Origin: Micavibrio aeruginosavorus EPB
GTDB taxonomy: Bacteria > Pseudomonadota > Alphaproteobacteria > Micavibrionales > Micavibrionaceae
Direction: 5' to 3'
Length of the DNA stretch: 64,000 nucleotides
Assembly: GCF_000348745.1 (NCBI RefSeq)
Contig: NC_020812.1
Location: 591,378-655,377, forward strand
Part shown: positions 22,790 to 51,268 of the stretch, in pieces
Layout of the letters: each line of letters begins with the position of its first letter
Position numbering within the stretch: the stretch's first letter is position 1
Notes under the pieces: generated by a model
The model's input: only the letters and a program-made list of their open reading frames with translations
What the model was told of the DNA's origin: nothing
Databases searched by the model: none
Program-made: the position numbers and the translations under genes

Positions 22790-23635
22790 ATGTTCAACCG
22801 CGCCGCATTGCCAAAAGACATCACGTCTTATGATCTGCTGAAGGCCTTTGCGGTCCTGACCATGCTGGTTGACCATATCGGTTTCTATTTTTTCCCCGAA
22901 GATATGTGGTGGCGGGCGATTGGGCGGCTGTGCGTGCCCATTTGGTTCTTCCTGATTGGCTATGCCCGGTCGCGGGATATCGGGCCGCGCTTGTGGATTG
23001 GCGGGACCATTTTGCTGGTGGCGGATTTGATTGCCGGTAAATATTTGATCCCATTTAATATTTTATTCACCATGCTGGCCATTCGCCTGATGATTGACCC
23101 GTTGATGCGCGGCGTGACCCGGGCTGGCGTACAGGTTCTGTGGGCGGTGGCTGTGATCTGCTTCTTCGCCTATCTGCCAACGGCCTTTGTGCTGGAATAT
23201 GGAACGCAAGGGGTGTTGCTGGCCATATTCGGCTGGTTTATGCGCCATCGGGCGGATGGGGGCTGGGGCCGGATTCCCGAGGCCATGGTGCAGAATTATG
23301 TCATTTTTGCCGCCGTGTCCTTCGTTTTGATCCAGACGGTGTCCTTTGGCTTTGCCCAGGGGCAAATGCTCCTGCTGGCCACCTGTGCTTTGCCTGTGTT
23401 TGGTGCATTATACATGTTCAAACCGCTGAATTTCCCCCGGTTGACGGCGTTGATCGGTCCGCTGGCGGGGGTGGTGCGGTTTATGGGGCGCTGGACTCTG
23501 GAAATTTATGTCGGGCATCTGGTGATTCTGAACATCGTCGGGGTTATTTGCTTCCCGGACCGGTTTGATTTGTTTTCTCCCCATTGGACCACGCTGGATT
23601 TCGGGGCGTCTGCGAGGCCAGCCCCCGCGCCGTAA
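22790..23635 (+). CDS. TraX-family integral membrane protein
   Basis: Protein of 281 residues with about seven or eight membrane segments. The start DITSYDLLKAFAVLTMLVDHIG, followed by a FFPED segment and RLCVPIWFFLIGYA, is the typical TraX opening. TraX itself N-acetylates F-pilin, but most family members are chromosomal and of unknown function. No other conjugation gene is seen here, so this is more likely a membrane acyltransferase-like protein with another role. AGGAGAGGGG before the ATG at 22790 is a strong ribosome binding site. Confidence 0.8.
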   Translation: MFNRAALPKDITSYDLLKAFAVLTMLVDHIGFYFFPEDMWWRAIGRLCVPIWFFLIGYARSRDIGPRLWIGGTILLVADLIAGKYLIPFNILFTMLAIRLMIDPLMRGVTRAGVQVLWAVAVICFFAYLPTAFVLEYGTQGVLLAIFGWFMRHRADGGWGRIPEAMVQNYVIFAAVSFVLIQTVSFGFAQGQMLLLATCALPVFGALYMFKPLNFPRLTALIGPLAGVVRFMGRWTLEIYVGHLVILNIVGVICFPDRFDLFSPHWTTLDFGASARPAPAP

Positions 23636-30364: not shown

Positions 30365-30430
30365 GTGATACGCAGTCCCTGTTCATTTTATTTTTTTAAG
30401 AGTCTATCCCAAGATTGAGGGGTGCTCAAT

Positions 30431-30491
30431 ATGAAAAGAGTTGCGATATGTTAAATGCGGGGCCGGAAATTGACTCTGGCCTCTTTTGTTT
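30431..30491 (+). promoter_or_regulatory. Possible leader: seven-codon orf and weak terminator-like hairpin
   Basis: GAGGGG precedes a seven-codon frame (MKRVAIC, stop) at 30431-30454. It is followed by GGCCGGA/TCTGGCC (30461-30481) and TCTTTTGTTTTT. The layout resembles an attenuator leader before the small gene at 30556, but the peptide has no regulatory codon run. Confidence 0.25.
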
Positions 30492-30555
30492 TTGTGTTAT
30501 TTCTGCAAAACAGAATTTCTGGGTTTTCGCGGGCCCCTTAAAAGGTTTTTTGAAA

Positions 30556-30735
30556 ATGGAATTTATTTACGACGAACAAAGCACGCCTATTGCTCTGCTG
30601 ACGCCGGAGTTGAAGGCGGAATTTGAACAAGCGGGCCTGTTTCGCATGCTCGACCCGTATTATCAGTATCCGGAGTCAACGCCGAAGGCCGCACCACGTC
30701 ATCTGGTGTTGGTGGTCAAGAGCCCGAATCCGTAG
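30556..30735 (+). CDS. Small hypothetical protein
   Basis: Protein of 59 residues starting MEFIYDEQSTPIALLTPELK, with a Tyr/Pro-rich part (LDPYYQYPES) and a hydrophobic end. The same frame is open upstream to ATG 30448, which would give 95 residues including a Cys/Phe-rich stretch. I prefer the short form, although its ribosome binding site is weak. The last 20 bases overlap the convergent helicase gene. No function is recognised. Confidence 0.4.
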   Translation: MEFIYDEQSTPIALLTPELKAEFEQAGLFRMLDPYYQYPESTPKAAPRHLVLVVKSPNP

Positions 30736-33520: not shown

Positions 33521-33598
33521 GATTGGACGCTATCATCCATCATCGCGCTGTTCCAGATCAAACAGCATAAAACCCCCGATTTTACGGGCCTAAATGCA

Positions 33599-33631
33599 AA
33601 AATCCCCGTGGGGAAGACCCACGGGGATTTT
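33599..33631 (-). terminator. Terminator of the H1-like gene
   Basis: Fourteen-base stem AAAATCCCCGTGGG with CCCACGGGGATTTT around five bases, followed by a T-run on the minus strand. Confidence 0.85.
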
Positions 33632-33652
33632 GATCACAACACCAAGGAAGAA

Positions 33653-34006
33653 TTACTTCTTCTTGGCAGCGGTTTTGCGCTTCGTTGTGGTTTTCTTCGC
33701 AGCTACTTTTTTCGCCGGAGCTTTTTTAGCAACGGTTTTCTTAGCAGCAGCTTTTTTCGGAGCGGCTTTCTTAGCAGCGGCTTTTTTCGGAGCAGCTTTT
33801 TTCACTGTCTTCTTAGCGGCCGGCTTTTTAGCAGCAGCTTTTTTCGGAGCAGCTTTTTTCACCGTCTTTTTCACTGCCGGTTTCTTAGCAGCTACTTTTT
33901 TCTTGGCCGGAGCTTTTTTCTTCGCTGCCGGTTTCTTTGCTACGGTTTTCTTCACTGTCTTCTTTGCGGCAGGTTTCTTTGCTGCCGGCTTTTTCTTGGC
34001 TACCAT
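33653..34006 (-). CDS. Histone H1-like Lys/Ala/Pro-rich DNA-binding protein
   Basis: Protein of 117 residues made almost only of Lys, Ala, Pro, Thr and Val in repeats such as [12 protein letters not shown] and AAKKTVKK. This is the composition of eukaryotic H1 tails and bacterial H1-like proteins (Hc1/Hc2, AlgP/PAKKA-type). It is expected to be unstructured and to bind and compact DNA. GGGGAG stands eight bases before ATG 34006. A long near-perfect DNA repeat inside the gene (about 33770-33890) could expand or shrink. An inverted repeat (34069-34085) lies upstream. Confidence 0.85.
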
Positions 34007-34068
34007 TTTAGTTTCTCCCCAAGGAAGTGACATTGTCCGGTCACACGGATTGTACCAACCATTGATAC

Positions 34069-34085
34069 GTTACCCATATAGTAAC
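34069..34085. promoter_or_regulatory. Inverted repeat upstream of the H1-like gene
   Basis: GTTAC, seven bases, GTAAC, about 65 bases before the start codon. It is a possible operator; the stretch 34007-34279 otherwise holds only the terminator at 34197. Confidence 0.3.
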
Positions 34086-34196
34086 CCATTTTTTTAAAAA
34101 GAAATAAAGAAAATTACATTTTCGGAAATTGTCATCCGTGATGGTGTGACCGTGATGACACAGATGATGAGTCATTTTCATCGCGCGCATGATGCA

Positions 34197-34234
34197 AAAA
34201 CACCCCCGGATGAATCACATCGCGGGGGTGTTTT
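34197..34234 (-). terminator. Terminator of the pilin-like gene
   Basis: Eleven-base stem AAAACACCCCC with GGGGGTGTTTT. On the minus strand it ends in a T-run. Confidence 0.8.
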
Positions 34235-34279
34235 GAATGGTGATGATGGGATCGTGATGGGGTGATGATTGATGGATGA

Positions 34280-34984
34280 TCAGCGTGCGATCAGCACATG
34301 ATAGTAGTGATAAAAATCCTGATCCAACGCATCGGCGGCATTGCCGTTCCCCCCCACGCAACCCGCAGATTTCTGCAGAATTTGCGGTGCTGTCACGGTG
34401 TTGCCCGCGGCGTATGTGCCCGTGAACGGCGTGTATGAAACCACGGTTGAAATGGGGGGCGGATTGCCGCTGGCGTCATCAATTTTCATCATGCGATTGA
34501 TCCGCAAACAATCGGCTTTGCCCACCCCGGACAGGATGAAAACCAGGTCGGGTGCAGACGTGCCAACACCATCGATGGCCAGGGAGCCCGTATAAATAAT
34601 TTTTTGGGTTGCGGTTGTCTTCGGCATGCCCAAACCGGCCCCGGCGGGGTCGAAAACACGGTTTTCGGCGTCGGTGCAGGCCGCAAAATCATAATCGTTG
34701 GTGGCCCAGTCATCGCTGTCGAAACAGATGTCATTCTCGCTGCCGCCCCGCGCCAGCATTTGCTGAATCGCGGTTTCCATGGCCTTGCCATCGCGCATGA
34801 TCCGGGTGGCTTCGACGGTTGCGCGTTCGGTTTCCCCCGCCTGTTGGACGTTATCGCCCGTCTTGGTGATGGCGATGGTCAACGCGGTCAAAAGGGCGAT
34901 GGCCAGCAGGATAAACCACAGCGCATTGCCGGATTGGCCGGATTGGGGTGTAACGGGGCTTTTACGAGGCAAAAATGGCATCAT
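34280..34984 (-). CDS. Membrane-anchored protein with a pilin-like N-terminal segment
   Basis: Protein of 234 residues. A short basic/polar leader (MMPFLPRKSPVTPQSGQSG) precedes a hydrophobic helix NALWFILLAIALLTALTIAI and then a helical region rich in Glu/Arg. The arrangement of Gly, hydrophobic helix and long amphipathic helix resembles type IV pilins, pseudopilins or Tad-type minor pilins. The C-terminal part has several cysteines (DICFDSDD, AACTDAE, ADCLRIN, AGCVGG) that could form disulfides. No pilus assembly genes are nearby. Divergent from lysS. The family call is tentative. Confidence 0.6.
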   Translation of the reverse strand: MMPFLPRKSPVTPQSGQSGNALWFILLAIALLTALTIAITKTGDNVQQAGETERATVEATRIMRDGKAMETAIQQMLARGGSENDICFDSDDWATNDYDFAACTDAENRVFDPAGAGLGMPKTTATQKIIYTGSLAIDGVGTSAPDLVFILSGVGKADCLRINRMMKIDDASGNPPPISTVVSYTPFTGTYAAGNTVTAPQILQKSAGCVGGNGNAADALDQDFYHYYHVLIAR

Positions 34985-37899: not shown

Positions 37900-37988
37900 T
37901 CAACGCTTTCCTCTGGTCGGATGGGATAAAATCGGCAAGAATGGGAAGACTTATTCCTCGTGCCGGGCAATCATATACGTTGGCTTTG

Positions 37989-38768
37989 ATGAAATACAAT
38001 CTCTTCGAAAATTCGTTTTTTCAGGATAAACGCCGCGTGGCCTTGCTGGTTGCGGCCGGTGTTGTCTTGGGCGGGATTGTCGCGGTCGCGACCATGCCGG
38101 ACCCGGTCACAAACAAAAGCCCGGTCACACATGTTTTACAACCCGTGCCCGCAGGGATGATGACGTTGCGGGGGGAGGGCACGTTGCCCGATTTACATGT
38201 CGCGCAACAAAGCGATCCTGTGCTGAAAGATATGACGACCGCTTTCGCTGCGGCTGGCGCGGTGGGGCTGTTATCCAGCGTGAATGATCTGGATAATCGC
38301 ATTATGGCGTTGCTGTTCCGCTGGGGTGGCGTGGATAACGTTAATCCGGACAGTTACGGTGGCGGTATGGACGGGCGCATTATTGCCCTGTTGCAAAAAG
38401 CCGGGCAGGTGTCCGCCGACGTTCGCCCGGATATGGTGATCAAGGCGGATGAAGTCGTGCGCCTGACCCAGCGCTGGAACAACGGCTTTAATCATTTTAA
38501 AATCCGTTTGCTGGCCCAGGCCGCCGGACCGGAAGTGTTCGATGGACAGATTCGTTACGATGTTCGCAGTGACCGGCTGGATGTGACGGGGGGGTTGTCG
38601 CCGGCTTTTATGACGCAATTCGCTGGTGCGGTGCGCGGTAATCCGCAATCGGCCGCCATCATGGCGCAGTTTTTGGATTTCATCGATTCAACGCGTGGAT
38701 TTGCAAATTTATCCGAAGCCGATCAGGACGCCATCATGGCCCTGTCCGCCGGAGATCAGGGAGAGTAA
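37989..38768 (+). CDS. Hypothetical single-pass membrane protein
   Basis: Protein of 259 residues from ATG 37989 (MKYNLFENSFFQDKRR). One membrane segment follows the basic residues (VALLVAAGVVLGGIVAVATM), and the rest is probably periplasmic. No domain is recognised; the C-terminal half is helical with NLSEADQDAIMALSAG at the end. The next gene starts two bases after the stop, so the two form an operon of envelope proteins. Confidence 0.65.
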   Translation: MKYNLFENSFFQDKRRVALLVAAGVVLGGIVAVATMPDPVTNKSPVTHVLQPVPAGMMTLRGEGTLPDLHVAQQSDPVLKDMTTAFAAAGAVGLLSSVNDLDNRIMALLFRWGGVDNVNPDSYGGGMDGRIIALLQKAGQVSADVRPDMVIKADEVVRLTQRWNNGFNHFKIRLLAQAAGPEVFDGQIRYDVRSDRLDVTGGLSPAFMTQFAGAVRGNPQSAAIMAQFLDFIDSTRGFANLSEADQDAIMALSAGDQGE

Positions 38769-38770
38769 CG

Positions 38771-39034
38771 ATGCAAATTATTAAGGTCTGGCTGAAAATT
38801 ACGGCGTTTTTGGCGGTGCTGGGCTGGGTCTTGCATTGGGCCAGTCCGGATTTTGCCGCGTGGCTGGATGGCGTATTCTCGAAAAAAGACGCGCCGATTG
38901 TGGTTGAGCAGGGCGCGCCGCAGACGGATTCCATCCCACCATCCGACGCTGGGGCGATTCGGGCCGATCAACGCGCCGATGAAAAGGATGATGCGAAACG
39001 CATTCCGCGCGCACCCTATCAATTCAATCAGTAA
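38771..39034 (+). CDS. Small membrane-anchored hypothetical protein
   Basis: Protein of 87 residues with one N-terminal membrane helix (VWLKITAFLAVLGWVLHWA) and a charged, proline-rich tail. It is co-transcribed with the preceding membrane protein, two bases apart. No function is recognised. Confidence 0.6.
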   Translation: MQIIKVWLKITAFLAVLGWVLHWASPDFAAWLDGVFSKKDAPIVVEQGAPQTDSIPPSDAGAIRADQRADEKDDAKRIPRAPYQFNQ

Positions 39035-39055
39035 TTGGGGCAATAAGTCTGGATT

Positions 39056-39736
39056 TTATTCTTCGGTCCGTTCGGCCAGGACGTAGCCCAGCCCGCGCAG
39101 TGTCGCAATTTGTACATCGGCACCTGCATCGTCCAGTTTTTTACGCAGGCGATGCACCAGAACCTCGATCGAATTTGATGACCCTTGTTCGCCGTAACTG
39201 TACAGACGGCTTTCAATCAGCTCTTTGCTGACAACCTTGCCGTTGTTCCGCATCAATTGTTCCAGCAAGTCAATTTCGCGGCGGGTCAGTTTCATAGGGG
39301 AATTGATCACGCTGGCCGTATGGGCGTTGGTGTCCAGCGCCAGATTGCCCACGGTGATCACCGCGTCCAAGGCTTGCGCCGGGCGGCGGAGCAGAGCCCG
39401 CACGCGGGCGGTCAATTCCGGCATTTCAAACGGTTTGGGCAAATAATCATCCGCGCCCAAATCCAACCCCTTAACCTTATCATCCACGCCTTGGCGCGCG
39501 GTCAGAATCAGCACGGGGATGTTTTTATTGTGTTCGCGAATTTTTTTGAGAAGGGTCAAACCATCCTGATCCGGGAGGCCCAGATCAGTGATGATCAGAT
39601 CATAGCTTTGCGTGCGGACAAGGGCGAGGGCTTCATCCGCCGTGAAGGCGCAATCGCTCTCATACCCCGCCTGGTGCAGGCCAGCGGCGATGAATTGGCT
39701 TAATAATTCGTCGTCTTCGATCAATAAAAGACGCAT
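39056..39736 (-). CDS. OmpR-family response regulator without adjacent kinase
   Basis: Two-domain transcription regulator of 226 residues. The receiver domain has the acidic pocket (IEDDE), phospho-acceptor Asp51 (LIITDLGLPD), Thr79 and Lys101 (YLPKPF). The C-terminal winged helix has VLVHRLRKKLDDAG as recognition region and ends ATLRGLGYVL. It most resembles the QseB/PmrA/TctD branch. No histidine kinase is encoded nearby. OmpR-type regulators bind direct repeats; one (40397-40414) lies upstream of the CBS-domain gene that precedes this one by 15 bases. Confidence 0.92.
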   Translation of the reverse strand: MRLLLIEDDELLSQFIAAGLHQAGYESDCAFTADEALALVRTQSYDLIITDLGLPDQDGLTLLKKIREHNKNIPVLILTARQGVDDKVKGLDLGADDYLPKPFEMPELTARVRALLRRPAQALDAVITVGNLALDTNAHTASVINSPMKLTRREIDLLEQLMRNNGKVVSKELIESRLYSYGEQGSSNSIEVLVHRLRKKLDDAGADVQIATLRGLGYVLAERTEE

Positions 39737-39751
39737 GGATCTTTCTTACTA

Positions 39752-40246
39752 TCATGGGCGCGCCCCACCCATCGCACTGCCATCGTCGGGGGAGAAGAAA
39801 GAAAATCCAATCTTCTTCCGCATGGCATTCAATTCGCGCGACAGTTCCAGACGCAAAATATCATCAGAAACCAATCCCAAAAACCGACCGTTTTGTTCGA
39901 CCGGTATATAGGGAAATCCATTCTGGCATACTGTTTGGAAAACGTCACGGCACGATTGTTCGGCATCCACAGGGGTGGGGGCGGTGTTCATGACCTCGTC
40001 CAACGGGGTTTTTTCCGCCTCTTTCCCACTGCGCAGGACATTGCCGAGATAGCTGGCATAGGTAAAAATACCCACCAGATCGCCACGGTCCATTACCGCT
40101 ACATATTGGGTTTTATAGCGGTACATCAAATCCAGCGCATCCGCGGCAGAGGCATTGTGCTCTATCCTTGGGGTTATGCTGCTCCGGACTAATTTGCCAA
40201 CGGCTTTGCCGGGGCGGGTATTGGAAGAAGGGGGCATCTTGGACAT
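39752..40246 (-). CDS. CBS-domain pair protein
   Basis: Protein of 164 residues with two CBS motifs. The first is around SSITPRIEHNASAADALDLM with YVAVMDRGDLVGIFTYASYL; the second around PVDAEQSCRDVFQTVCQNGF with YIPVEQNGRFLGLVSDDIL. CBS pairs bind adenosine derivatives and act as sensors. It lies 15 bases upstream of the response regulator in the same operon, so it may report energy state to it; that link is inference. Confidence 0.85.
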   Translation of the reverse strand: MSKMPPSSNTRPGKAVGKLVRSSITPRIEHNASAADALDLMYRYKTQYVAVMDRGDLVGIFTYASYLGNVLRSGKEAEKTPLDEVMNTAPTPVDAEQSCRDVFQTVCQNGFPYIPVEQNGRFLGLVSDDILRLELSRELNAMRKKIGFSFFSPDDGSAMGGARP

Positions 40247-40396
40247 TTAAAGTCTCCTGTTTTTCAATGAATTAAGGTTTTTTCCAACACCTTTTTCATA
40301 ATCTTTTATTTCCTTTATGATGCGGTGCCGAACTTACGGACGACTTACCGCCTTCGAAAAACAGGATTTTTTGAAAATATTTCCATAAAAATAATT

Positions 40397-40414
40397 CTGT
40401 CAGTTTTCTGTCAG
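40397..40414 (+). promoter_or_regulatory. Pho-box-like direct repeat
   Basis: CTGTCAG, four bases, CTGTCAG: two identical heptamers with an 11-base period. The PhoB box consensus is CTGTCAT repeated with the same 11-base period. It reads towards the small-RNA candidate, about 40 bases ahead of its first hairpin, and is about 150 bases from the divergent CBS-regulator operon. Confidence 0.5.
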
Positions 40415-40454
40415 CTTGATCGGCGAAACTGAACATACGGTCGGATTGCCAAAT

Positions 40455-40572
40455 ACCTGTAGCGCCGCCAACCGCCCCCTCTCTCCTCGGTGGCTTACAG
40501 GTTAAACTCCGACCCCCACACTACCTGCACACACGTCTAAGCCCGGATCAGCCCCCCTGATCCGGGCTTCCT
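40455..40572 (+). ncRNA. Candidate small RNA with a CU-rich loop
   Basis: The 345-base gap 40247-40591 has no gene but holds two strong plus-strand structures. First, ACCTGTA/TACAGGT plus GCCGCC/GGTGGC (40455-40502) encloses a pyrimidine loop with CCCCCTCTCTCCTC, which can pair with ribosome binding sites. Second, a perfect 13-base stem AAGCCCGGATCAG/CTGATCCGGGCTT (40539-40569) has a C5 loop and a trailing CCTTCTTTCC, like a terminator. This design matches alphaproteobacterial anti-Shine-Dalgarno small RNAs in general form. I cannot name a family. The second hairpin lies 23 bases past the aminopeptidase stop codon but has no T-run in that direction. Confidence 0.55.
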
Positions 40573-40591
40573 TCTTTCCGGTGTGGTTTGG

Positions 40592-42070
40592 TTACAATTT
40601 CGGATCGTAATTTTTCCAGTATGCCGGGCGATCTTTGCGCGGGATCGCGGCCCAGCCACGGTTGAGGACGTCATATTGCGGATCGATCCACAATCCGTTG
40701 TCCATCACCTTGCGCCCGTCGAGATAGATGATGCCATCTTTCCCATACAGCATCGTGGTGATGTCCCAGTGCAGTTTACTGCGCCCGCCATTATCGACCT
40801 TGACCGTCACGCCCTGGTATTCGGTGTAGGAATAGGGACGGCCAAGCGCCAGATGGAATGACCCGCCGATTTTTTCGACCAACAGGCCATTGGCCACATG
40901 CTGTTTCAAATGCGGGTTTGTGCCAATGCCCAATTCCCCGACAAATCGCGCGCCATCATCCATCTCAACCGCGCGTTTAAAGGCTTCAAGCCCGGCCTTT
41001 GCGTCATATTTGACCAATTCACCATTTTTAAATTCCATGGTCAGGTCTTCGATCAACGCGCCGCCATGGGAAAATTTCCCCTTGGCCACCACGATGCCGT
41101 TGACACTGTCCTTGCGCGGAGCGCTGAAAATTTCCGACCCCGGTACGTTCTTGGCGATCAGGCTGTTGCAGAACGTGAAATGCGAACCGTCATTGTCCAC
41201 CAATTCCATCGACACATCGGTGCCATCATTGTTGGTGATGCGGACATGCGTGGCGGTGTTAAATTCCTGGATCAGTTTTAAATGCGCGTCACTGATCGCA
41301 TCCCACGGCTGGTCACACATTTCGAAGAACAATTTGATGTAATCATTGTATGCGATGCCATCAATTTTTGAATCGTTTTCGGTGGGAATACAGGTCAACG
41401 TATAAAACACTTCGCCCGTTCCGGCCTTTTGGAAGAAGGGGGCGGTATCATGATCATAGATCTTGGCCTTGTCCGGGTTGGCGTGAACGATTTTTCGGTT
41501 CGGGGTGTTGGCGCGCACAATCATGCTTTTATTCACGCCGCCCACCATGCGCATATAATCGGCGGCCAAGGCCTTTACGCCATCGGGCGTGGCATGATTC
41601 AGCACCAGGGAATGAAAATCGCTGTCCTGGAAATAAACGCTGAACGGCACCTTGTCGCGCAGGCACCATTGCACCAGATAGGGACCAATGGCGCGCGACG
41701 TATCGCCCAAGCGCATGGTCACCACATCATGGTTTCCGGGCTTGCCGTTATACAGTTTTTTGGCCAGGGACAGGTTCAGCTTGTCTTCCACCGGCGGCGC
41801 GGTAAAGGCGGACCATCCACCTTGTGCCATGTCCTTCAAATCCGCGCGGAAGGATGATTCATGTTCCAGCCCAGCCACAACGATATAGGCCAGCCGTTGC
41901 ATGTCGCTGAGCGTGGCCAGCAGGGCGTCGGTATCGGCGCGTTTGTAACTCTGGTCGATCCTGGGCAACAGGGCCTCGGCTTCGGCTTTCCACAATGACG
42001 ATCCCTTGGCCAGACCTTTGATGGTTTTGACCTGGTCTTTGTAATACGGGCCCAGCGACTGGATTTTCAT
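40592..42070 (-). CDS. M29-family (AmpS/PepS-type) aminopeptidase
   Basis: Metal-dependent cytoplasmic aminopeptidase of 492 residues. Signs of peptidase family M29 are NVPGSEIFSAPRKDSVNGIV, GELGIGTNPHLKQHV and GGSFHLALGRPYSY, with a C-terminal KVMDNGLW segment. They supply the acidic and histidine ligands for two metal ions. At 492 residues it is longer than the roughly 410 typical of AmpS, through N-terminal and C-terminal extensions. Divergent from uvrB. Confidence 0.85.
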   Translation of the reverse strand: MKIQSLGPYYKDQVKTIKGLAKGSSLWKAEAEALLPRIDQSYKRADTDALLATLSDMQRLAYIVVAGLEHESSFRADLKDMAQGGWSAFTAPPVEDKLNLSLAKKLYNGKPGNHDVVTMRLGDTSRAIGPYLVQWCLRDKVPFSVYFQDSDFHSLVLNHATPDGVKALAADYMRMVGGVNKSMIVRANTPNRKIVHANPDKAKIYDHDTAPFFQKAGTGEVFYTLTCIPTENDSKIDGIAYNDYIKLFFEMCDQPWDAISDAHLKLIQEFNTATHVRITNNDGTDVSMELVDNDGSHFTFCNSLIAKNVPGSEIFSAPRKDSVNGIVVAKGKFSHGGALIEDLTMEFKNGELVKYDAKAGLEAFKRAVEMDDGARFVGELGIGTNPHLKQHVANGLLVEKIGGSFHLALGRPYSYTEYQGVTVKVDNGGRSKLHWDITTMLYGKDGIIYLDGRKVMDNGLWIDPQYDVLNRGWAAIPRKDRPAYWKNYDPKL

Positions 42071-47367: not shown

Positions 47368-47442
47368 GGTGTTCTCCTCTATGGTTGTAAATTCCGGGAT
47401 TGATGATGGGCCGATGGGGTGGGGGCGTCAAGAGGGGGTGTA

Positions 47443-47475
47443 AACCACGAATGGACACGAATTCACACGAATGAG
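47443..47475 (-). repeat. CACGAAT-type repeat, right copy
   Basis: AACCACGAATGGACACGAAT is the reverse complement of 46866-46885, followed by one more CACACGAATG unit. The CACGAAT heptamer thus occurs three times in a row with small changes. Confidence 0.8.
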
Positions 47476-47495
47476 ATTCGTTGGAGCCATAATGC

Positions 47496-47565
47496 CCGTC
47501 ATACCGGCGCAGGCCGGTATCCAGTGGATGGACCGTATGGACCCCGGCCTTCGCCGGGGTGACGG
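47496..47565. repeat. Palindromic repeat element, two hairpins
   Basis: A 70-base element bounded by CCGTCA and TGACGG. It holds ATACCGGC/GCCGGTAT (loop GCAG) and ACCCCGGC/GCCGGGGT (loop CTTC), joined by ATCCAGTGGATGGAC. This is the form of dispersed palindromic repeats common in alphaproteobacterial genomes. Confidence 0.75.
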
Positions 47566-47572
47566 ACAAGGA

Positions 47573-48166
47573 CTATGATGGGTTTAGTGTGTCCCAGTGA
47601 TTTTTGTACAGGGTACGGCGTGTCTTTGGCAATTTCGCAATCAAATTTTGCCATTCGTCAAATGTACCTTGATCTTTTAAAATATCGAACAGGTTCGCTG
47701 TGTCGCTATTTTTAGTGAGTGGGGTGATGTGCCGCAATTCGTTTTGATCGGTTAATGTGCCATTCAAGTAAGAAAAAACGCGCTGTATTTTCTTTAAGAA
47801 AACATGCTGCCCCAAGAGAATGTCGGCTTGAAAAAGGTCTTGTGCGGCATTGTTGAACTCGTCCGCGTTGACTGTGCTGAAGAGGGTTCGCAGGAGGTCT
47901 TTACCCTTTGCGTCTTCTTCATCGATGCGTTTTTGCAATGCATCGAGGGCCGATTGATAATCTTGTTCCGTTTTGAACCCTAAGGCCATGGTGAGCGCCG
48001 TGGTGTAATCGCGCCGCCAATCAAGCGCCTTGCTGACAATGCATTCAATTTTATCGTCACACGATTCTGCGCGTGGCGGTTCGGCGATTTCCAGTATTTT
48101 TTTGTGAATCCATGTTTTCATGGAATCAAGGGCAATGGTTTGCAGGCGGGTGGTTTTTCTTGCCAT
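47573..48166 (-). CDS. Hypothetical protein between palindromic repeats
   Basis: Charged, mostly helical, soluble protein of 197 residues with no recognised domain. It has coiled-coil-like stretches (YQSALDALQKRIDEEDAKGK) and basic ends. The gene looks more AT-rich than its neighbours, and palindromic elements of one family in opposite orientation lie on both sides, which suggests an acquired segment. It is separated from ohr by 205 bases and from lepA by 105 bases; both gaps are filled by repeat elements. Confidence 0.6.
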   Translation of the reverse strand: MARKTTRLQTIALDSMKTWIHKKILEIAEPPRAESCDDKIECIVSKALDWRRDYTTALTMALGFKTEQDYQSALDALQKRIDEEDAKGKDLLRTLFSTVNADEFNNAAQDLFQADILLGQHVFLKKIQRVFSYLNGTLTDQNELRHITPLTKNSDTANLFDILKDQGTFDEWQNLIAKLPKTRRTLYKNHWDTLNPS

Positions 48167-48214
48167 GGCTTTTCCCTGTTTTTTGTTTTTGTGTACGCAG
48201 GAAACATCCTATGG

Positions 48215-48271
48215 ATCCCCGCTTTCGCGGGGATGACAGAAACCTAAGCGACTACGTCGCTAAGTTTTCTG

Positions 48272-50239: not shown

Positions 50240-51268
50240 ATGAAACCTTTGCCGCCGCCCCATCGGCCCGGCCAGTCATGGCAGAATCAGGCCTTTTTTG
50301 CCGCCGCGGGCTTTGCGCTCGGGCTTTGGTTGTTGCGCGGCATGGTTGGGGCGTATGACCCCGCAAATGCGGGCGGGGTGGGAATGCCGCTGGCGGAACC
50401 ACTTGATTTGACTTGTATTGCTTTGGGCTCGGCGCACTACCCCGCCGTGGACCCGAAAACAATGTCATTGCTGCGCATCGAAAAACGGGCGCAGGAAACG
50501 GATATTGGGCGGGCCACAATGGCCACCGCCTTGGCGGAGGGGCTGCGTGCCTGTTTCAACCCGGCCATGGCCGTGCCGAAACCCAACGGCAACCGGACTG
50601 TCGGGGCCTATATTCTGGGCCGCCGCCGGGTGGATTTGAACCCCAGCGTGGATCCCGACATGCTGACCACAACCATGGTGCATGAAGCCCGCCACAGGGT
50701 ACAGGAAGTTCTGGGCGTGAACTTTCTGGCTGAGGGCAATATCCCGGAAGCCGAGCGCATGATCGTGGCGTGGTTGACCGAAGCCGATGCGCGATTGGTG
50801 ACCATTTTATCGGCGCGCGAAGCACATCGGAATGGTGACCTGAGCCAGATGGAGCGGTTGATGGCGGATTCGGCCTATCGCCCGATGATTTATGCGATGA
50901 TTGCGGCTCAAGTTCAAAACCCTGATGATCGTGCCGCAGAAATGGCCGCCGCGATCAAGGCGTTTCGCCAAAGCCGCGAACTGATCGACCTGTATGATCC
51001 TGATTTCATCAAAGCCATTGTAACGTTCAGTGCGCCGTATGATCCCGCGAAACCCCGCCAGATTTTGGTGCATGACCAGATGTTGTCGAAGTTGGGCGAT
51101 ATGGGATCGTACGGCAATTACATGACCAGTGACCTGAAAAAATTTATCCGGGCCAGTTTCACGGATCAGGATTGGCGGGATATGAAGGCGGCGCAGGATT
51201 GTTTGCAAGACCGCAAATTGGGCAAGACAAAAGACGCATGCCCGTCATGGCCGCGCCCATCGGCGTAA
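50240..51268 (+). CDS. Membrane-anchored HExxH putative metallopeptidase (DUF6782-like)
   Basis: Protein of 342 residues with a proline-rich N-terminus, one membrane segment ([19 protein letters not shown], about 18-36) and an extracytoplasmic domain. [16 protein letters not shown] holds HExxH (His148, Glu149, His152), and [13 protein letters not shown] gives a possible third ligand (Glu181). Spacing and context match the protein at 21200, so the two are paralogues. AGGGA seven bases before ATG 50240 decides the start over 50192. The next gene encodes an I78-type inhibitor domain. Confidence 0.72.

Follow-up and report, generated by a model that had tools for sequence, protein, structure and literature searches.

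A predicted small RNA gene ending in a conserved terminator, divergent from a CBS-domain protein gene and an orphan response regulator gene in Micavibrio aeruginosavorus

The genome of Micavibrio aeruginosavorus EPB, which we take to be an obligate bacterial predator, has an intergenic gap at 40247-40591, between a divergent gene for a CBS-domain protein and a gene for an M29 peptidase. The question raised by this locus is whether the two hairpins in the gap belong to a regulatory RNA or serve the neighboring genes. Positions refer to the window, the whole stretch of 64 kb that was analyzed, and the genome it comes from (G000) is a single contig of 2,458,610 bases. A sequence-only reading had proposed a small RNA here, in what it described as the only gap above 300 bases. 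That description was not borne out by the automated gene list, which was built from codon-position substitutions and has five such gaps (30365-30715, 33521-34340, 40247-40591, 47368-48271, and 50264-50607), and this list may miss small genes. It supersedes an earlier longest-ORF list that picked shadow ORFs, examples of which sat opposite what we presume to be ATP synthase genes. The statement that the gap holds no gene needs qualification, as four ORFs of 23 to 46 amino acids overlap 40436-40578, but none of them covers both hairpins. A search of the open-access literature, judged by title and abstract start, found no description of a Micavibrio small RNA. In the ARL-13 RNA-seq paper, the words "sRNA" and "antisense" have 0 occurrences, and its available passages describe ORF expression only (PMC3189940). 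The features of the locus are listed below, where G002 (contig of 2,481,983 bases) is the only other genome found with the element.

40436-40576, plus strand: candidate sRNA gene, probably starting at about 40437-40439 and probably ending at about 40576-40580
40439-40514, plus strand: hairpin 1, with a 7-bp outer stem, an internal loop, and a 14-bp inner stem with one bulge
40470-40488, plus strand: apical loop of 19 nt, C/U-rich and unpaired, AACCGCCCCCTCTCTCCTC; the G002 copy is identical
40515-40538, plus strand: CA-rich single-stranded linker, unpaired in the centroid structure; 24 of 24 bases identical in G002
40539-40578, plus strand: intrinsic terminator, with a 13-bp perfect stem, a C5 loop, and the tail CCTTCTTTC
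40397-40414, plus strand: direct repeat CTGTCAG-TTTT-CTGTCAG of period 11, candidate OmpR/PhoB-type operator; identical in G002
40425-40430, plus strand: GAAACT, a possible -10 element with three of six consensus letters; conserved in G002
39752-40246, minus strand: CBS-domain protein of 164 amino acids, the divergent neighbor (Pfam CBS, 2.7e-11)
39056-39736, minus strand: OmpR-family response regulator, candidate operator-binding regulator; PmrA/TctD/QseB-like, under the cut-off of each family shown

Both of the strong plus-strand hairpins that had been claimed are present. In hairpin 1, the outer stem GGTCGGA/TCCGACC pairs 40439-40445 with 40508-40514, and the inner stem of 14 bp, with one bulged base, spans 40455-40502. 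The loop AACCGCCCCCUCUCUCCUC has an unpaired probability of at least 0.9 at every position. Hairpin 2 reads AAGCCCGGATCAG-CCCCC-CTGATCCGGGCTT (40539-40569) and is followed by the pyrimidine tail CCTTCTTTCC, confirming at 40539-40578 the perfect 13-base stem with a C5 loop and pyrimidine tail that had been described. It is the sole terminator-like site found within 40200-40700, and it gives the candidate the plus-strand intrinsic terminator expected of an intergenic sRNA, which is kept in G002. A plus-strand segment of 150 nt folded at -59.4 kcal/mol compared with -35.9 ± 3.4 kcal/mol for 200 dinucleotide shuffles (z -6.97), none of which folded as well, and the plus strand of the G002 copy gave a z of -6.73 versus its shuffles. 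The absolute plus-strand energy is ordinary in this G+C-rich window, where 300 of 3193 plus-strand windows of 141 nt are as low (G+C-corrected z -1.1). Only against its own composition does the plus-strand fold stand out: at 41% C and 19% G, this strand is C-rich and G-poor yet folds well, which is what the shuffle result reflects.

Comparison with G002 showed that 140 of the 141 bases at 40436-40576 are identical, with one additional base inserted in an unpaired stretch. Identity between the two genomes averages 89.8% over 141-base windows across the whole stretch (about 10% of bases differ), and in the coding sequences on either side it is 91.3% (CBS), 88.5% (regulator), 86.2% (M29), and 90.9% (UvrB). 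By aligned-base identity, none of the other non-coding gaps of 80 bases or longer, 26 in all with this one, is as well conserved as the RNA-bearing gap (98.5% over 331 aligned bases). Windows of 330 bases as conserved as 40247-40576 number 54 of 12,305 and fall at six places including this one; the other five places are coding wholly or partly by the gene lists. Among 141-base windows, 224 of 12,493 match the identity of the RNA. From the CBS gene to the repeat, 148 of 150 bases (98.7%) are likewise identical, plus one inserted base. Since that stretch is equally conserved, the conserved unit appears to be the divergent promoter region together with the RNA, and since those 150 bases and other 141-base windows are as conserved as the RNA, conservation alone is no proof of one. 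The similarity stops abruptly just after the terminator tail, where G002 carries 57 extra bases on the M29 side, and this boundary indicates that hairpin 2 belongs with the RNA and not with M29. The tail itself is T-richer in G002 (CCTTCTTATTTT). The sole stem substitution, A40455 to G in G002, turns A-U into G-U on the plus strand and U-A into C-A on the minus strand, so that pairing survives on the plus strand and breaks on the minus strand, and the change is tolerated on the plus strand only. Structure conservation comprises two sequences only and one pair-keeping change. The 57 extra bases of G002 (L045, about 1427-1490) hold a palindrome, CCGGAAAAGGCGTAAGCCTTTGTCCGG, and are either a REP-like insertion or a segment lost from the window's genome.

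The composition-controlled folding, the conservation that ends at the tail, and the structure-keeping changes support a candidate, unannotated small RNA on the plus strand. On these sequence grounds, we consider it likely that 40436-40576 is a real sRNA gene, specifying a putative transcript.

The distribution of the element is narrow. In a DNA search of 58 genomes, the window's own included, it turned up in just one of the 57 other relatives, G002, and the best match outside the two genomes had an E value of 0.025 and consisted of chance pieces. The suggestion that the stems should be conserved in relatives is weakly borne out: they are kept in G002, but were not found in the other 56 relatives searched. 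Absence is less firm within the genus because three of its four other members are incomplete (81 to 88%). A covariance model with strict filters matched two of 104 family genomes, again counting the window's own. A third match, in genome G090 (20.2 bits, E 0.055), was judged to be due to chance, as only the terminator part fits well. Scanning contigs for a pattern of the repeat plus CCCCCTC gave 64 stretches; the covariance model, run on 66 sources including L089 and the window, found nothing credible among them (best E 0.81). Phages and plasmids gave no match, nor did viral contigs when scanned with an exact 21-base pattern; near records of the window's genome were possibly excluded from these collections. 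Within its own genome, the RNA is single copy, the next best match being a terminator-like piece of 31 bp (E 0.0027).

If the RNA is made, its exposed loop invites a comparison with ribosome-binding sites, and the sequence-only reading had called the loop anti-Shine-Dalgarno in type. The letters agree, since the loop contains UCUCUCCUC, complementary to GAGGAGA, and the CBS mRNA has AGGAGA before its ATG, forming six pairs with the loop at -8.5 kcal/mol. However, neither three tests on window genes nor a pattern search of two genomes revealed any excess of pairing. The pairing tests cover ribosome-binding sites of window genes only, about 3% of the genome, and short seeds may exist in the remainder. 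With 56 window leaders, 76 of 100 shuffled loops paired on average as well as the real one, and segments inside genes paired slightly better than the leaders did. With 67 genes and pairing required in both genomes, 295 of 300 shuffles did at least as well on the mean and 36 of the 300 on the best target; with the 68 genes of the corrected list, the corresponding counts were 366 and 164 of 400. The 56- and 67-gene tests used the longest-ORF list and the 68-gene test used the codon-position-substitution list, with the same conclusion. The best window target, a TraX-like gene at 22790-23635 on the plus strand (Pfam TraX, 4.7e-18), was not significant against shuffles; its leader has diverged between the genomes, yet pairs with the loop at -20.6 and -20.8 kcal/mol. 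The 14-base loop complement, allowing at most two mismatches, occurs at eight sites in G000 and eight in G002 versus six and seven for the reversed pattern. One of the eight in each genome is the RNA gene itself; 14 sites remain, and none of these is a ribosome-binding site in G000 and G002 alike. A site in a repeat-like stretch precedes an ATG in G000 alone, and a conserved site sits 15 bases inside a short ORF whose status is doubtful. A genuine sRNA acting as a broad blocker of Shine-Dalgarno sequences, like the alphaproteobacterial RNAs with such loops, would be consistent with the complementarity and with the pairing of the CBS and TraX-like leaders. We regard that as unlikely, given that most shuffled loops pair on average more strongly with window leaders than the real loop does and that the complement sites are in no excess over the reversed pattern. 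An hfq gene is present in both genomes, and the RNA may work without Hfq because no clear A/U-rich Hfq site is visible by eye.

That the RNA belongs to no named family was upheld by Rfam (release 15), which gave 0 matches at the gathering score in the window; the best sub-threshold scores in the region were 13.3 and 11.5 bits. The only sRNA family at E values up to 5 was RgsA (RF00628), whose match takes in the C-loop terminator stem and, at 11.5 bits versus a gathering score of 88.4 and with an E value of 1.3, is at chance level. The proposed kinship with C/U-loop RNAs of alphaproteobacteria is not supported as membership, there being no Rfam match, one loop only, and no CCUCCUCCC. The alpha-r14 or cuckoo RNAs (NfeR1, SmelA075/SmelA099) are described in the available parts of two papers as carrying CCUCCUCCC-type loops on three or four hairpins (PMC10746234, PMC3927594). 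On that description, the candidate shares with them a C/U-rich unpaired loop complementary to ribosome-binding sites, but it has one such hairpin, with CCCCCUCUCUCCUC, and CCUCCUCCC does not occur in 40436-40578, which places it outside the group. The alpha-R8 siblings SisA-D of Caulobacter, in the passages available, carry the motif UUUCCUCCCU in an internal single strand and number four per genome (PMC12559287). Judged by those passages, an anti-Shine-Dalgarno type pyrimidine motif and a Rho-independent terminator are common to both, whereas the candidate has its motif in a hairpin loop and its gene is single copy.

The hairpins may also be read from the minus strand, with hairpin 2 terminating transcription of the M29 gene and hairpin 1 serving the CBS-regulator operon as a leader or spacer. 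Both genes flanking the gap are on the minus strand, and the hairpin 2 stem lies near the M29 stop. The minus strand of the same 150 nt also has the lower absolute energy (-64.4 kcal/mol), and it is more extreme among window segments, only 45 of 3193 being as low (z -1.9). Versus shuffles, however, its z is weaker, at -3.86, and hairpin 1 by itself gave -4.59 on the plus strand compared with -2.05 on the minus strand; the sole stem substitution, moreover, breaks a minus-strand pair. A minus-strand promoter-like pair, CTGACA/AATATT at 40403-40376, fits transcription toward the CBS gene, but it would start transcription past hairpin 1, which leaves hairpin 1 outside the CBS leader. On the minus strand, hairpin 2 is followed by AGACGTGTG and not by a T run, and in G002 the 57 extra bases set the M29 side apart, with almost no change in the rest. 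We therefore consider transcription of the hairpins from the minus strand to be quite unlikely and continue with the plus-strand sRNA gene.

Upstream of that gene lies the direct repeat, which is extended by preceding T's so that the exact repeat is nine bases long in G000, with a period of 11. Exact 7-mer repeats of that period occur at only four places in the 64-kb window. Two further ones lie at 34244-34290, where there is no called gene, and have the appearance of a simple GATGATGG-type repeat. The perfect pattern CTGTCA-N5-CTGTCA is unique in the genome. Allowing one mismatch adds five sites, compared with four for the reversed control, so that no regulon emerges; three of the five are inside long ORFs, one is in a 91-amino-acid ORF, and one is largely between ORFs. 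From the end of the repeat it is 10 bp to GAAACT and 24 nt to the first stem, and this spacing relative to GAAACT and to the start of the RNA resembles PhoB/OmpR-class activation; a promoter scan called nothing at GAAACT.

The repeat matches what we take to be the Pho box, CTGTCAT-N4-CTGTCAT, except for the seventh base in both halves. No PhoB regulator (TIGR02154) exceeded the cut-off in any of seven genomes, the best reaching 185 bits versus 296.2, a strict cut-off that two of 14 controls pass. PhoU domains were found only within a frame of about 600 amino acids. With no regulator over the PhoB cut-off and PhoU confined to that frame, the Pho regulon was dropped, and we retain the wider term OmpR/PhoB-type operator. 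An open-access literature search found no PhoB-controlled sRNAs in alphaproteobacteria. A regulator at G000:C1:145912, with an adjacent kinase-like gene recalling ChvG, is what we take to be the ChvI candidate. ChvI was rejected as the repeat-binding regulator because its motifs, TTGC-N3-GCAA and N-GCC-N8-GCC in the available part of PMC9731502, differ from the repeat. The nearest candidate regulator is encoded on the opposite strand, two genes away; it is the OmpR-family response regulator, an orphan in that no kinase gene is seen beside it.

With such an operator between two divergent starts, and with the 150 bases beside the CBS gene 98.7% conserved, the gap could be mainly Pho-box-like promoter and operator DNA for the CBS-regulator operon, with the hairpins incidental. 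This we judge very unlikely: hairpin 1, linker, and hairpin 2 are 130/131 identical, plus one inserted base; the hairpins lie on the side of the operator away from the CBS gene, out to 155 bases beyond the operator; and a canonical Pho regulon is not apparent in the seven genomes at the strict PhoB cut-off, with PhoU only in the frame of about 600 amino acids. A small protein gene or a selfish repeat is highly implausible, since none of the four short ORFs spans the stretch, the next genome match is only the 31-bp terminator-like piece, and there was no match in phages, in plasmids, or, with the exact 21-base pattern, in viral contigs.

For the sRNA gene itself, we lean slightly toward a combined model, drawn from the sequence, of a lineage-specific, stand-alone plus-strand sRNA of about 140 nt that would be controlled by the adjacent regulator and would act by base pairing. 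A regulator of the OmpR/PhoB family, most likely the neighboring orphan, would bind the repeat, which would overlap the -35 region, and would turn expression of the RNA on (or off). Bound there, it could also act on the divergent CBS-regulator promoter. More tentatively, the RNA might base-pair in trans, its 19-nt C/U-rich loop perhaps serving as an exposed seed against G/A-rich mRNA stretches. The closest parallel is ChvR of Caulobacter crescentus, whose regulator, ChvI, is of the OmpR family. Like the candidate, ChvR is a stand-alone intergenic alphaproteobacterial sRNA under a response regulator, a control that is presumed for the candidate, and of the known systems it is ChvR that the candidate would most resemble in its working, both being structured sRNAs of narrow purpose that answer to a two-component response regulator. 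The available passages on ChvR give 84 nt, two stem-loops that pair with an mRNA leader, independence of Hfq, and one mRNA reported as the sole target (PMC6237742). The two differ in that no sequence kinship is seen and in that the regulator of the candidate would be the adjacent one.

The genes beside the RNA share its narrow distribution. The CBS protein has a clear orthologue (95%) in G002 only among the 57 other relatives; nine further relatives have weak matches, of 23 to 31% identity or of 54% over a 39-residue piece, and matches of 23 to 35% occur in nine of 384 other genomes drawn from the class. The response regulator has a 98% orthologue in G002, and outside it only four genomes, from another family of the order, reach an E value of 1e-65, at 51 to 53% identity. 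Each of these four loci continues with a gene of 454 to 465 amino acids that has, by eye, a kinase-like start, and the direct repeat is absent at all four. The RNA, the CBS gene, and the close regulator orthologue are thus common to the same two genomes of 58. Together with two plus-strand ORFs without a Pfam match, the regulator, the CBS gene, and the RNA make up a block at 37941-40590 between the M29 and nitroreductase genes, which are here separated by 2.7 kb. M29 is directly followed by nitroreductase in three (L046, L048, and L049) of 15 further relatives with an M29 match, and in the remaining ones nitroreductase was not seen within the 1.5 kb or less fetched on each side. The interval fits a block insertion in this lineage, or loss elsewhere. 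It is tempting, though distinctly doubtful, to see in the block a predator module unique to this lineage, in which orphan regulator, CBS protein, and divergent sRNA would share one operator, would have been inserted as a block between the peptidase and nitroreductase genes, and in which the sRNA would rewire translation at the switch between search and feeding.

The candidate would represent a new, lineage-restricted example of a well-known kind, the regulatory sRNA. If expressed, it would be a concrete candidate regulator, present in one copy and open to deletion, with a transcription factor that can be named beside it; it would also be an sRNA of a very narrow lineage that is yet more conserved than the surrounding genes.

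Two of the other long gaps also drew attention. Gap 33521-34340 contains, at 33653-34033 on the minus strand, an ORF for a Lys/Ala-rich protein of 126 amino acids with an AAKKPAAKK repeat, which we take to resemble a histone H1-like protein, and a strong, conserved terminator-like hairpin follows this ORF at about 33600-33632. The 904-base gap at 47368-48271 appears to be a strain-variable stretch, as only 263 of its bases align to G002.
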